From Lachnospiraceae bacterium (GTDB lineage Bacteria > Bacillota_A > Clostridia > Lachnospirales > Lachnospiraceae): DNA of 6,969 nucleotides. The DNA lies in the NCBI GenBank assembly GCA_017523185.1, contig JAFWXB010000315.1:1-6969 (forward strand). The letters run 5' to 3'. The position numbers and the translations under genes were made by a program. The notes below the pieces were generated by a model. The model ran no database searches, was not told the origin of the DNA, and worked only from the letters and a program-made list of their open reading frames with translations. Shown piece after piece: positions 1,198 through 6,393 of the stretch; the stretch's first letter is position 1; each line of letters begins with the position of its first letter.

Positions 1198-3138
1198 ATG
1201 ACAAAAACACTTTCTATTTTTAAACCATATTTACATATAGGAATCCTTCAAAAAGAAGAAGGACGAGAAAAAATTAAATATTTAAAAGTTCCGGGAGATA
1301 TGGGTTATGCAGAATTAAATCAAGATATTGAAAAAGGTGCAGTTCAGTTTGCAGAATTAAAAGCCTTAGTGGAAAAAGAAAATGAACCACAATATATTTT
1401 AATTACTTGTGATAATTTAGAATATGCCTATATGGCAGTTACATATCTTGCTGCCTCTTTTAATGAAAAACATGGTGTAATGTGTCATGTAGAAAAAACA
1501 AATCCTGAATATGCAAGTTCGAATTTAGATAGATGGGAAGAAGATGCATTTGCAATTCCTATTATTGAAAAAACGGAATTGGAGCAATATATGTGTAATG
1601 AAAATTCGCCTTTTGGATTTGGAAATATGTCATTTATTGGCGACCAAAGATGTAAAAATGAGAAACCATATTGGACATCTTGTGTGGGTGAAGCTGTTTG
1701 TATTCTTTGTGAAGATAGGGGATTTTATTATGGCAACAGAGATATAGATGACAATGTAATGGAAGGATTTCAATATTTCCAAAATAATAAAAAAGTATAC
1801 ATTATCAATTATCAGCAACCAAATAGAATGCATGAATTTTGTGATGAAGAAGGTAATTCATTTGATGATGACGATTTTTTGAATATCGAAGAAGATAGTC
1901 AGCGTGCAAAATGGAATTATGCAATTTTAAGTTTTAGAATGGACGAAATAGACTTAAATATTTCAAAAGAAAATTTAGAAAAGTATTATAAATTGGTGCT
2001 TCAAAGTATATTTCATAAAAATGAATTAATTGTAAAAAAAGGATTTTCTTATAAAAAATTAATTCATTTGATTAGTGCTATGAAAGAACCGGATAAATGT
2101 CAGTTAATGGAAAATATTGTAAAATACGCAGTTAAGGATTTTTCCACAAGTACACCAAATGTTATTACAAATGAATCGTTTGCATTTATGGAGCGTTTTG
2201 TGCGTATCAATGAAAAGACAAAACGAAATTCCAATCGCAATCAAAATGCAAAGGAAAAACTTGTAGATGGATTACTTGGAATGGATTCTGTAAAACAGCA
2301 AGTATTAAATGTGGTAAATGTGCTGAAATTTAATAGAATACGTGAGCGTATGCATATTTCAGGTGGTGGTTATCACAATGCACATGTTATGTTAGGTGCT
2401 CCGGGAACAGCCAAAACAACCGTTGCTCAAATTATGGGAGAAATTATGACAGAGGAAGGCCTGTTAGAAGATAATCGCTATATTTGTATCAATGGTGCTG
2501 AATTAAAAGGAAAATATGTAGGTCATTCTGCACCAAAAACAAAAGAAATTTTTGAAAATAACGATATTATCGTAATTGATGAAGCATATTCTTTGGTAAG
2601 TGATACAGGGGAGCAAGATTGTTTTAGTAAAGAAGCCATTGCCCAATTGATTATTGAGTTAGAAAATCATTCCAAAGAAAAATTGATTATTTTTGCAGGA
2701 TATGGTGGAAAAAATGTAAATGAAAAGAATAATAAAATGAAAGCGTTTTTAGATGCAAATCCTGGAATTAAAAGTCGTATTACATCTACCATTTATTTTG
2801 ATTCCTATACACCGGAAGAAATGGTAAATATTTTCTTTCACATTGCAAAAAAGCAAAATTACATTGTAGAAGAATCGGTAGCAGAAGCTGTACGAAAACA
2901 TTTTGAAAAACGTGTATTAGATGAAAATTTTGGAAATGGTCGTGAAGCAAGAAGTTTGTTAGAAACAGCAGTTGTGTATACAGCAAATCGTATTTTTGGA
3001 TTGGAAAAGAAAACATATTCAAAAGCAGATATGAAACATATCACAGAAGAAGATGTAAGAAAAGCAATTCGACAAGTAGAAGAAGGTGAAGAAATTCGTA
3101 ATGCAAAGAAAATGAAAATGATAGGATTTGGAGTGTAG
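1198..3138 (+). CDS. AAA+ ATPase, CbxX/CfxQ (CbbX/SpoVK)-like, with a long uncharacterised N-terminal region
   Basis: Predicted 646-residue cytoplasmic AAA+ ATPase; the family remodels or unfolds partner proteins through a hexameric pore. The start has an excellent site, AAAAGGAGGT at 1181-1190, seven bases before the ATG. The C-terminal module (about 355-610) shows Walker A GAPGTAKT (400-407, K406), a pore loop KYVG (439-442), Walker B IIVIDE (457-462), sensor 1 FAGY (499-502), the CbbX-type NPGIKSR with the likely arginine finger R527, and sensor 2 GNGREAR (579-585). Walker A has Ala where Gly normally precedes the Lys. Residues 1-350 match no family I recognise. They include an acidic patch (DDDD, 223-226), a YILITCDN strand (66-73) followed by a helix, and a helical block (256-315) that resembles an AAA lid, so a degenerate first ATPase module is possible. 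The target is unknown. A 304-base gap separates it from the RNA ligase gene. Confidence 0.85.
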   Translation: MTKTLSIFKPYLHIGILQKEEGREKIKYLKVPGDMGYAELNQDIEKGAVQFAELKALVEKENEPQYILITCDNLEYAYMAVTYLAASFNEKHGVMCHVEKTNPEYASSNLDRWEEDAFAIPIIEKTELEQYMCNENSPFGFGNMSFIGDQRCKNEKPYWTSCVGEAVCILCEDRGFYYGNRDIDDNVMEGFQYFQNNKKVYIINYQQPNRMHEFCDEEGNSFDDDDFLNIEEDSQRAKWNYAILSFRMDEIDLNISKENLEKYYKLVLQSIFHKNELIVKKGFSYKKLIHLISAMKEPDKCQLMENIVKYAVKDFSTSTPNVITNESFAFMERFVRINEKTKRNSNRNQNAKEKLVDGLLGMDSVKQQVLNVVNVLKFNRIRERMHISGGGYHNAHVMLGAPGTAKTTVAQIMGEIMTEEGLLEDNRYICINGAELKGKYVGHSAPKTKEIFENNDIIVIDEAYSLVSDTGEQDCFSKEAIAQLIIELENHSKEKLIIFAGYGGKNVNEKNNKMKAFLDANPGIKSRITSTIYFDSYTPEEMVNIFFHIAKKQNYIVEESVAEAVRKHFEKRVLDENFGNGREARSLLETAVVYTANRIFGLEKKTYSKADMKHITEEDVRKAIRQVEEGEEIRNAKKMKMIGFGV

Positions 3139-3173: not shown

Positions 3174-3199
3174 TCGAACTCACGTTAATGTAAGTTCGA
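3174..3199. repeat. Imperfect palindrome / hairpin centred on TTAA
   Basis: The arms 3174-3184 (TCGAACTCACG) and 3189-3199 are inverted copies matching at 9 of 11 positions around TTAA. Weaker pairing extends outward to about 3168 and 3205 with GT wobbles. It lies 35 bases after the AAA+ stop codon. No T-run follows on either strand, so a classical intrinsic terminator is doubtful. An operator or an intergenic repeat fits equally well. A single related half-site, GAACTTACGTTAA, lies at 1087-1099 upstream of the AAA+ gene. Confidence 0.5.
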
Positions 3200-3442: not shown

Positions 3443-4579
3443 ATGGAAAAAAGAGCATTAGCACATATTGAAAAGGTAGAATGGGTGAAGCCGATTGAAG
3501 GAGCAGATAATATCGAGTTAATTGGTGTATTAGGTTGGATATGTATTGCCAAAAAAGATGAATTTAAGGCAGGCGATTTAGCTGTTTATATTGAAATTGA
3601 TAGTAAATGTCCTATGGAGGATAAGAGATTTGCATTTTTAGAGAATAGAAAATATAAAATTAAAACAATGAAATTGAGCAGATTTAATGTAATTAGTCAA
3701 GGGATTGCATTACCTATAACGATGTTTGATGAATTAAAAAGGAAAAAAGTAGGAAGTGATGTAACAGATATTTTAGGAATTACATATGCAGCACCTCAAG
3801 AACAAGAAGAAAAAACGGATATTGTTGTTCAAAAGATGCAAAAGAACAAGTTTGCAAAAAATCCTGTGATAAAAGCACTTATGAGATATGAATGGTTTCG
3901 TAATTTTATGAGGATATTTCTTGTTGATAAAAATGAGCAGAAAACGCACTTTCCAAATTGGATAATGAAAACAGACGAAGTACGAATTGAAAATACGCCA
4001 AAATATTTAGAGAGTACAGAAAAATGGGTAGTTACAGAAAAATTAGATGGTACCAGTTGTACATATGCAGTAAATCAAATTAAAAAAGGAAAATATGAAT
4101 TTTTTATTTGCAGTAGAAATCAACGTATTATAGATAAGCATCAGAGTGTAAGTAATGGTGTAAATATTTATTGGAAATTAGCAGAAAAATATCAGTTAGA
4201 AGAAATTTTGAAAAATTTTGCCAAAAAACATGGATATCGCAGGGTTATTTTGCAAGGGGAAGGAATTGGTAATGTACAAGGAAATCCGTATCAAATAAAA
4301 GGAGATGATTTCTATGTATTTAATTTGATTATTGAAGGACAACGTTTAGGAACAATTGAAATGAGTGAGATTTGTAAGCAACTTCAGTTGAAACATGTAC
4401 CAATTATAGAAACAGAATATTATTTACCGAAAACAATGCAAGAAATAAAAGAAGCAGCAGATGGAACAAGTGCAATTAATCCAAATGTGAAACGTGAAGG
4501 ATTAGTATATAGGGCAATAGATGGTGTAAAGAGTTTTAAAAATGTATCCAATAGTTACTTATTAAAAAAGAAGAATTAA
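3443..4579 (+). CDS. ATP-dependent RNA ligase, DraRnl (Rnl5/TIGR02306) type
   Basis: Predicted 378-residue RNA ligase that joins a 3'-OH and a 5'-phosphate by way of ligase-AMP and AppRNA; the characterised Deinococcus relative DraRnl seals nicks in duplexes when the 3'-OH side is RNA. Residues 1-115 form the N-terminal OB-like domain typical of this group (LAHIEKV, GDLAVYIEID). FPNWIMKTDEVRIEN (170-184) is the family's linker motif. The nucleotidyltransferase domain has motif I EKLDGT (199-204) with nucleotidyl Lys200, motif Ia SRN (224-226), QGEG with Glu273, FYVFNL (290-295), motif IV REGLVYR (351-357) and motif V SFKNVSNSYLLK (364-375). All core residues look intact, so the enzyme should be active. 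ATG 3443 is preceded by AAAGG (3428-3432). The Thg1-like gene follows after 24 bases, so the two are almost certainly one transcript. Confidence 0.9.
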   Translation: MEKRALAHIEKVEWVKPIEGADNIELIGVLGWICIAKKDEFKAGDLAVYIEIDSKCPMEDKRFAFLENRKYKIKTMKLSRFNVISQGIALPITMFDELKRKKVGSDVTDILGITYAAPQEQEEKTDIVVQKMQKNKFAKNPVIKALMRYEWFRNFMRIFLVDKNEQKTHFPNWIMKTDEVRIENTPKYLESTEKWVVTEKLDGTSCTYAVNQIKKGKYEFFICSRNQRIIDKHQSVSNGVNIYWKLAEKYQLEEILKNFAKKHGYRRVILQGEGIGNVQGNPYQIKGDDFYVFNLIIEGQRLGTIEMSEICKQLQLKHVPIIETEYYLPKTMQEIKEAADGTSAINPNVKREGLVYRAIDGVKSFKNVSNSYLLKKKN

Positions 4580-4586
4580 GAGTTTT

Positions 4587-4592
4587 AGGAGG
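4587..4592 (+). promoter_or_regulatory. Ribosome binding site of the Thg1-like gene
   Basis: AGGAGG lies in the 24-base gap between the ligase stop and the ATG at 4604, 11 bases before that ATG. It fixes the start and shows the second gene has its own strong translation signal within a shared message. Confidence 0.8.
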
Positions 4593-4603
4593 GAGAAATA
4601 AAA

Positions 4604-5476
4604 ATGTCTTTTAGAGATGAACTGGGAACTAGAATGAAAGAATATTATGAGCAAATTCCTAAGATGAAATTGATGCGCAGAACACCTGTTATGATACGTG
4701 TTGATGGTAAGGCATTTCACACATTGACAAGAGGATTTGAGAAACCTTTTGATGAGATTTTGATAAAAACCATGCAAGAAACAACGAAATACCTTTGTGA
4801 AAATATTCAAGGCTGTGTATTAGGATATACGCAGTCAGATGAGATATCGTTGGTGTTGATTGATTATCAGACATTTAGTACAGCAGCGTGGTTTGATTAT
4901 GAAATTCAAAAGTTGGTAAGTATTTCTGCAAGTATGGCGACAATGGCATTTAACAGATATTTTGAGAGAAATGTTAAGGAGTATTTTCTTAAAAATACAT
5001 CAGAATTACAAGAAAAGCGTGAACTAGAAAAGCAAAATGCATATAAGAAAGCAATGAAGCAAGGGGCATTATTTGATGCACGTGTATTTAACATTCCAAA
5101 AGAGGAAGTAACAAATTGTATTTATTGGCGTCAATTAGATGCTTCTAGGAATAGTATACAAATGGTTGGACAAGCTATGTTTCCACACAAAGAATTGCAA
5201 GGAAAGTCTTGCAATGATATTCAAGATATGCTTATGGCACAAAAGGGAATTAATTGGAATGATTTTCCAACACATCAAAAGAGAGGTACTTGTGTTATTA
5301 AAGAAGAATACGATATGTATATAGATGAAAAGGGACAAGAGATACAATCAAATGAAGCAGATAATTTTAAGGGTGAGTTAATTATAAGAACACGATGGAA
5401 AATCGATAAAGATATTCCTATTTTTAAGAATGAGGGAAGACAATATATTGAGAGATTGATATATGTAGGGGAGTAG
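4604..5476 (+). CDS. Thg1-like protein: tRNA(His) guanylyltransferase-family 3'-5' RNA polymerase
   Basis: Predicted 290-residue member of the Thg1 superfamily, which adds nucleotides to RNA 5' ends in the 3'-5' direction after activating the 5' end. Eukaryotic Thg1 adds G-1 to tRNA(His); bacterial Thg1-like proteins (TLPs) characterised in vitro instead repair 5'-truncated tRNAs by templated addition. The palm metal ligands are present: IRVDGKAFH with Asp34 (equivalent to human D29) and GYTQSDEISL with Asp79/Glu80 (human D76/E77). The motif YWRQLDASRNSIQMVGQ (174-190) replaces the HINNLYN block of true Thg1. With INWNDFP (216-222), KRGTCV (226-231) and a bacterial host, this marks it as a TLP. 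Bacterial tRNA(His) already carries an encoded G-1, so repair is the likelier role. It follows the RNA ligase gene by 24 bases, implying that the two act on the same RNA. Confidence 0.9.
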   Translation: MSFRDELGTRMKEYYEQIPKMKLMRRTPVMIRVDGKAFHTLTRGFEKPFDEILIKTMQETTKYLCENIQGCVLGYTQSDEISLVLIDYQTFSTAAWFDYEIQKLVSISASMATMAFNRYFERNVKEYFLKNTSELQEKRELEKQNAYKKAMKQGALFDARVFNIPKEEVTNCIYWRQLDASRNSIQMVGQAMFPHKELQGKSCNDIQDMLMAQKGINWNDFPTHQKRGTCVIKEEYDMYIDEKGQEIQSNEADNFKGELIIRTRWKIDKDIPIFKNEGRQYIERLIYVGE

Positions 5477-5703: not shown

Positions 5704-6393
5704 ATGGAAGCATACAAGAGTGAATTTATAGAATTTATGGTAGAAAGTGACGTATTAAAATTTGGTGATTTTACATTAAAGAGTGGCAGAAAATCTCCAT
5801 TTTTTATGAATGCAGGTGCGTATGTAACAGGTTCACAGCTTATGAGATTAGGTGAATACTATGCAAAAGCAATTCATGACAATTTTGGTGATGATTTTGA
5901 CGTATTATTTGGACCGGCATACAAAGGGATTCCGATTAGTGTTGTAACAGCAGTAGCATATAGTCAGTTATATGGAAAAGAAATCCGTTATTGTTCAGAC
6001 CGTAAAGAAGAAAAAGACCATGGTGCAGATAAAGGAAGTTTTCTTGGAAGCAAGTTAAAAGATGGTGACAGAGTTGTTATGATTGAAGATGTTACTACTT
6101 CCGGTAAATCTATGGAAGAAACTGTTCCAAAGGTAAAAGGTGCAGCAGATGTGGAAATTTTAGGACTTATGGTTTCTTTAAATCGTATGGAAGTTGGTCT
6201 TGGTGGAAAAGTAAGTGCATTAGATGAAATCAAAGAAAACTACGGATTTGATGCAAAAGCTATTGTAACAATGGAAGAAGTTGTGGAACATTTATATAAT
6301 CGTGAATGCCAAGGCAGAGTGGTAATTGACGATACTATTAAAACAGCAATTGACAATTATTACGAACAGTATGGTTGTAAAGAAAAGAATTAA
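5704..6393 (+). CDS. pyrE: Orotate phosphoribosyltransferase
   Basis: Cytoplasmic enzyme that joins orotate and PRPP to give orotidine 5'-monophosphate, the fifth step of de novo pyrimidine synthesis, just before OMP decarboxylase (PyrF). The 229-residue length is normal for the family. Visible motifs are FTLKSGRKSPFF near the N-terminus (23-34, orotate/phosphate binding), FGPAYKGI (69-76), the catalytic flexible loop with DRKEEKDHG (99-107) and the PRPP signature VVMIEDVTTSGKS (124-136) with acidic pair E128/D129. The ATG has GGAGG at 5689-5693, ten bases upstream. The VanZ-like gene begins inside its last 23 bases, so they are co-transcribed and perhaps translationally coupled. No other pyr gene is in the window. 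Confidence 0.96.
   Translation: MEAYKSEFIEFMVESDVLKFGDFTLKSGRKSPFFMNAGAYVTGSQLMRLGEYYAKAIHDNFGDDFDVLFGPAYKGIPISVVTAVAYSQLYGKEIRYCSDRKEEKDHGADKGSFLGSKLKDGDRVVMIEDVTTSGKSMEETVPKVKGAADVEILGLMVSLNRMEVGLGGKVSALDEIKENYGFDAKAIVTMEEVVEHLYNRECQGRVVIDDTIKTAIDNYYEQYGCKEKN

Follow-up and report, generated by a model that had tools for sequence, protein, structure and literature searches.

The ligase and TLP genes and their surroundings

The window, by which we mean the whole stretch of 6,969 nucleotides that was analysed, carries an RNA ligase gene followed on the same strand by a gene for a Thg1-like protein (TLP), with 24 nt between the two in the ORF calls. The features of the locus are as follows:

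2-1021: methyltransferase gene, incomplete at the window edge
1198-3138: AAA+ ATPase gene, its stop 304 nt upstream of the ligase gene
3443-4579, + strand: RNA ligase gene, ATP-dependent (378 aa, ATG start)
4580-4603, + strand: intergenic gap of 24 nt, with a Shine-Dalgarno-like AGGAGG inside
4604-5476, + strand: TLP gene, bacterial type (290 aa, ATG start), a predicted 3'-5' polymerase
5704-6393: pyrE, 227 nt downstream of the TLP gene, with a VanZ-family gene beyond

A terminator scan of the window gave no terminator-like site between the ligase and TLP genes, and the two are probably co-transcribed. PADLOC returned no match for either protein, the window contains no tRNA genes, and an Rfam scan of it gave just two microRNA matches, both sub-threshold. 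The preliminary description of this DNA had remarked that the window holds no healing kinase or phosphatase; this agrees with the domain profiles, which found no kinase or phosphatase family among the six window proteins scanned.

To the right of the pair, a VanZ-like gene lies within 1.5 kb of pyrE, as it does in 26 of the best 30 pyrE loci drawn from 397 Lachnospiraceae genomes, and the right flank therefore reads as ordinary chromosome. The listed pyrE matches with an organism named (n=7) came from Agathobacter sp. (four), Lachnospiraceae bacterium (two) and Roseburia sp. (one); the right flank is a Lachnospiraceae pyrE locus, Agathobacter-like in kind. The upstream side of pyrE varies among 10 relatives (L244-L253; genes recognised by eye rather than by family search): pyrD adjoins pyrE in L249, L250 and L253, and other genes stand there in L244, L245, L251 and L252.

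The two genes to the left were considered as further members of a cassette and rejected, since among 302 loci (E<=1e-8) the AAA+ protein was matched in 6, all of them loci fetched for that very protein, and the methyltransferase in 0. The C-terminal half of the AAA+ protein is CbbX/SpoVK/EccA-like and its N-terminal half is without a Pfam match; its relatives are rare, being found in 3 of 397 genomes of the family (E<=1e-60) at 30-43% identity. The methyltransferase is RNA-methyltransferase-like (UPF0020), with the NCBIfam Trm14 model far below cutoff and a PADLOC match to mad2 at 66.6 bits. The motif GAACTYACGTTA occurs at 1087-1098, before the AAA+ gene, and again at 3176-3187 and 3186-3197 (- strand), where the two copies make a palindrome between the AAA+ and ligase genes. 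It could be an operator common to these two genes, a weak idea because its 3 matches (at most 2 mismatches) were equalled in 5 of 200 shuffles.

Family and catalytic residues of the two enzymes

The ligase comprises an N-terminal OB-like domain (residues 6-92; PF21189 OB-fold, 82.9 bits), a helical linker at about 118-166 and a nucleotidyltransferase domain (residues 193-366; PF09414, 87.3 bits), with a cutoff of 27 for both families. This combination of OB and PF09414 domains is the architecture expected of the Rnl5/DraRnl type, to which the protein had been assigned from the start. Fold, domains and residues uphold that assignment, but the curated model does not, since the ligase misses the cutoff of TIGR02306, the Rnl5/DraRnl equivalog (108.7 vs 151.15 bits). 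The phage RNA ligase family PHROG 968 matches at 220.8 bits. All nine matches in a PDB sequence search (E<=0.001) were the Naegleria gruberi RNA ligase (NgrRnl) or its mutants, and with a predicted model of the window protein (mean pLDDT 81.8, pTM 0.68) Foldseek likewise placed NgrRnl structures best (E 3.7e-28, TMq 0.68). K200, the predicted nucleophile, lines up with the KLDG lysine of the Naegleria enzyme. More broadly, K170, D172, R149, E227, E312 and K326 of NgrRnl correspond to K200, D202, R181, E273, E352 and K366 of the window ligase; the NgrRnl residues are those of the PDB titles, with chain numbering offset by one, and K121, which is also titled, falls outside the mapped part. The window ligase is thus like NgrRnl (PDB 5cot and mutants) and DraRnl in joining OB and nucleotidyltransferase domains and in keeping these six catalytic residues. 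It differs from NgrRnl in having about 49 residues, predicted to be helical, between its aligned domains, where NgrRnl has 11. By domain and residue alignment the protein is related to the nick-sealing ligases of the Naegleria/DraRnl kind, with its catalytic residues intact, and as such it would be expected to seal RNA breaks that carry a 3'-OH and a 5'-phosphate.

The TLP scores 109.2 bits against PF04446 (cutoff 29.2). The Thg1C family PF14413 stays below its cutoff of 26.3 in the window protein (21.2), as it does in the phage relative L135 (24.5). The best PDB match is 4kgk (220.9 bits; database title Thg1-like), which we take to be the Bacillus thuringiensis TLP (BtTLP) of PMC3701042. D34, D79 and E80 align with D30, D75 and E76 of BtTLP, and these positions are invariant in 25 aligned TLPs. 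K47, R32, K103, R160, E16 and M187 correspond to K43, R28, K99, R131, E12 and M158; at position 47, that of the activation lysine, most of the 25 have arginine instead. Residue roles in activation and transfer have been assigned in BtTLP, where H33 acts via its main chain (PMC3701042), and all of the mapped residues are kept in the window except R16 (K20) and H33 (A37). The window protein further differs from BtTLP in extra, unaligned stretches at about 122-151 and 238-260. On these alignments it is a bacterial-type Thg1-like protein, closest to BtTLP, with intact catalytic residues. Thus, the starting observation of a DraRnl-like ligase and a TLP encoded 24 bases apart, both with catalytic residues in place, holds in ORF calls, domain scores and residue alignments alike.

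In a tree of 124 TLPs, whose bootstrap is unsettled and some of whose long branches are unsure, the window protein groups with P0002, P0003, P0007, P0008 and P0012 (100/99). Next to this group stand the Lachnospiraceae contigs L001, L002 and L004 with the viral contig L083 (99/96), and the clade sits inside a larger set whose rows are mostly viral contigs.

Recurrence of the pair and its genomic neighbourhood

To count adjacency we used the best 80 of 516 genome loci and the best 80 of 104 viral loci matching the TLP, of which 155 of 160 had a called TLP ORF (in L074-L077 and L079 no ORF was caught by the TLP profile). A ligase of the window type lies directly beside the TLP on the same strand in 1 of these 155, namely L135, with a 26-nt gap; it is rare for a TLP to have this ligase type as its immediate neighbour. 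A second type of PF09414 ligase adjoins the TLP in 8 of the 155 loci, or 5 of 117 non-redundant groups, lying upstream in L010, L037, L038, L039, L040, L044 and L047 and downstream in L048, with gaps of -74 to 154 nt on mechanical start calls. Direct pairs with either type thus number 9 of 155 loci and 6 of 117 groups. Compared by BLAST, the second type and the window ligase have no real similarity (E 0.53). The single member put through Pfam (L010) is without an OB domain, and several ligase models give L040 and L010 only weak scores. Adjacency on one strand accordingly occurs in more than one lineage (the window, L135 and the second-type loci), and the TLPs concerned are scattered over the tree, at the window, at L135, in an Oscillospiraceae set and at L010. 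Repeated assembly of ligase-TLP pairs would be the simplest reading of this scatter, and losses may instead lie behind it. The adjacency that the preliminary description proposed to look for in other genomes does recur, then, but mainly with another ligase. Of the genomic arguments for a task common to both enzymes, this recurrence, which involves two ligase types, is the strongest.

Closer to the window, the TLP relative P0007 (78% identical) and the ligase relative P0123 (79%) both come with a longest contig of 23,423 bases and 2 contigs, which suggests that they lie on one contig in the window's own subclade, with gene order beyond the reach of this match. Across sampled chromosomes the window-type ligase was found in 1 of 397 (E<=1e-40), 2 of 325, 1 of 315, 0 of 2, 0 of 15 and 0 of 22, the draws overlapping, and because it is nearly absent there, the window's exact pair was not seen in another assembled chromosomal locus. 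Two genomes with such a ligase (G219 and G507) have it at 40-42% identity, and a BLAST with the window proteins against the surrounding 13.2 kb (L254) and 4.1 kb (L258) detected no TLP. Among 44 viral records with a window-type ligase, 1 also holds a TLP, some 18 kb off; conversely, 10 of 50 TLP-bearing viral records (50 of the best 80 of 104 viral loci) hold the ligase anywhere. A ligase of profile A2 was present in 3 of 26 TLP-bearing genomes, hand-chosen among the best 80 of 516 genome loci. In the TLP loci of the best-80 sets, the LIG5 profile gave a ligase in 7 of the 75 from genomes and in 19 of the 80 from viruses, and the stricter A2 profile in 14 loci, including a 72-aa piece in L002.

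Two broken loci were also seen. In a Ruminococcus flavefaciens MAG (L042, 7090-8765), ligase and TLP frames are broken into shorter ORFs with a phosphoesterase adjoining, reflecting decay or assembly error; this locus is within the 155 and was not scored as adjacent, its frames being broken and an opposite-strand ORF call lying in between. An IMG/VR contig (L203, 8001-8173) carries a window-ligase-like piece of 175 nt at 78% DNA identity with the rest unmatched, apparently a decayed remnant.

The neighbour clusters of TLP genes, each identified from one scanned representative, include calcineurin-like phosphoesterases, AAA_33 kinases, RlaP, NADAR, NAD synthase, NAMPT and vault-shoulder proteins, with a sub-threshold match to Macro. 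Within 8 kb on either side, the 117 non-redundant TLP groups from the best-80 sets held a metallophosphoesterase in 50, RlaP in 27, a PNK-like kinase in 26, the window-type ligase in 20 and the second ligase type in 7. As a control, 40 of the best 80 of 104 viral TLP loci were compared with 40 windows of equal size lying on the far side of those records, one such window itself having a TLP match; the p values are single-test, and the enrichments are biased upward because the profiles were built from TLP-neighbour clusters. Phosphoesterase was found in 15 of 40 phage TLP windows and 1 of 40 controls (p 0.00012), RlaP in 10 and 1 (p 0.0069) and HD in 7 and 0 (p 0.012). PNK and Macro each gave 5 and 0 (p 0.055), vault 7 and 1 (p 0.057), and Band-7 3 and 1; for NAD synthase, NAMPT and zinc finger alike the counts were 3 and 0 (p 0.24). 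HD, Band-7 and zinc finger are names given by eye, not by Pfam. The window-type ligase was not enriched (3 vs 1, p 0.62), nor did the second ligase type (1 vs 1) or NADAR (2 vs 2) differ. These results support an RNA-repair type of neighbourhood for TLPs in phages and bacteria; they give no support to a specific tie of the TLP to the window-type ligase.

Viewed from the ligase, 8 of 33 groups (44 ligase-anchored viral loci) have a PNK-like kinase no more than four ORFs away, and in 4 it follows immediately downstream; over the same distance RlaP and phosphoesterase were each found in 3 groups and Band-7 in 4. The commonest profiled repair partner of the phage relatives is thus a PNK-like kinase, and in the window the TLP stands in that place. 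One such kinase, directly after a window-type phage ligase (L163, 9174-10061), has an AAA_33 match with HD just under cutoff and looks like a healing enzyme of the HD-Pnk kind; among its PDB matches are Pnkp1 (4xrp) and 4gp7, the latter with the database title metallophosphoesterase and presumably a bacterial Pnkp kinase domain. Vault-like proteins, with shoulder and repeat domains in the scanned member, occur in 18 of the best 80 of 104 viral TLP loci (for example L109, 9772-12261). In Bacillus phage Goe8 (L260, 5998-10746), the TLP gene is followed by an AIPR-annotated gene, and RtcB lies about 2.8 kb downstream.

Possible roles and relation to known systems

We consider it reasonably probable that the pair is a two-gene RNA-repair module that comes from a pool of genes also found in phages and lies in a Lachnospiraceae chromosome just upstream of pyrE, in which the enzymes serve as separate tools for different lesions. 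The ligase would seal 3'-OH/5'-phosphate breaks, and the TLP would adenylylate 5'-monophosphate ends and put back lost 5' nucleotides that pair with a template, chiefly at the acceptor ends of tRNAs. RNase attack, by toxins or phage-triggered nucleases, is the likely trigger, and end-healing would be supplied by other genes. The account draws on gene identity, catalytic residues and adjacency, on the repair-type context of relatives and on the position of the TLP near many viral sequences in the tree; from such evidence we infer co-expression, substrates, activity, trigger and the direction of transfer. The bacterial and archaeal TLPs investigated prefer repair of 5'-truncated tRNA over addition on full-length tRNA-His; they add template-paired nucleotides, and Watson-Crick-paired ends are inefficient substrates for their removal of pyrophosphate (PMC6471195). 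A TLP product that keeps its 5'-triphosphate for this reason would be a poor ligase substrate, and a gap within the anticodon loop would offer the TLP no template. On both grounds we favour two enzymes working apart rather than in a relay.

A relay was what the preliminary description had proposed, as a special refill-and-seal route: after trimming, the 3' fragment would be extended 3'-5' by the TLP on the opposite stem strand, and the ligase would then join it to the 5' fragment. In a further variant of the relay, the TLP would supply a 5'-adenylylated end for the ligase to seal with no ATP step of its own. App-RNA is an intermediate of both chemistries, and its hand-over from TLP to ligase is possible. 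Tight adjacency, its recurrence with two ligase types and the earlier proposal of ligation via a 5' App end (PMC2904730) all speak for such an order of events, which we nevertheless regard as unlikely. TLP products end in a 5'-triphosphate, whereas a substrate for the ligase must carry a 5'-monophosphate or App; Watson-Crick-paired ends suit the pyrophosphatase step poorly (PMC6471195); and RlaP, a predicted restorer of lost bases before ligation (PMC7824862), is already present in the 27 groups counted above. The absence of ligase enrichment near phage TLPs and the single TLP among 44 ligase records also tell against a special route. That the two proteins work as one coupled machine for 3'-5' gap repair, in which the TLP either fills a gap in a stem, starting from the downstream fragment, or passes on a 5'-adenylylated end for the ligase to seal with no adenylylation step of its own, appears distinctly improbable; if true, RNA repair would proceed from the downstream fragment's 5' end. 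What stands of the original repair-cassette reading is the nature of the enzymes and the repair-type neighbourhood of the TLP, but not a dedicated joint route.

Pfam, PHROGs and phage annotators name the TLP family tRNA-His guanylyltransferase, so that the protein might merely mature or proofread tRNA-His while the ligase has an unrelated role; the preference of bacterial and archaeal TLPs for truncated tRNA (PMC6471195) and the genome-encoded -1 position in bacteria (PMC2904730) make this very improbable. Alternatively, two independently acquired repair genes may have come to lie side by side in the variable region upstream of pyrE, with general benefit as their only coupling. This would suit the variability seen by eye among the 10 relatives and the rarity of window-type ligase and TLP in one record (1 of 44), and we think it rather unlikely in view of the 24-nt same-strand gap with its ribosome-binding site, the matching contig figures of the 78-79% relatives P0007 and P0123, and the other ligase-TLP adjacencies elsewhere.

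The module that we favour, with its separate tools, bears on the in vivo role of bacterial TLPs: as a compact chromosomal pair of genes it offers a simple system for asking whether a single damaged RNA undergoes both 3'-5' addition and ligation. We found no study in the open-access literature that tests a TLP and a ligase together; RNA-repair systems were reportedly treated by Burroughs and Aravind in 2016. The pairing is not new in kind, because Thg1 genes beside RNA ligase genes in some bacteria were reported, and tRNA repair proposed for them, in 2010 (Anantharaman, Iyer, Aravind 2010, PMC2904730). In that paper, polynucleotide kinase is the most persistent bacterial partner of Thg1, MACRO also occurs in the neighbourhoods, and Clostridiales bacterium, Coprococcus eutactus and Eubacterium rectale stand in the abbreviation list. 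New here are the recurrence with two ligase types and the same-record control, and the window is a reduced, chromosomal version in a gut bacterium.

Compared with the 2010 neighbourhoods, the window likewise encodes a Thg1 family protein with an RNA ligase and, as there, a tRNA-repair role is proposed from context, but the polynucleotide kinase typical there (PMC2904730) is missing from it. In phages, ligases, PNK, phosphatases, RlaP and sporadic Thg1 have been described as a means of countering attacks on the translation machinery (jumbo phage survey 2021, PMC7824862); the window shares the ligase and Thg1 components with these sets, and differs in being chromosomal and reduced to two genes. 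With the Pnkp-Hen1 and RtcB routes it has the general purpose in common, and it is set apart from them by its families, neither Pnkp, Hen1 nor RtcB being among the six window proteins scanned.
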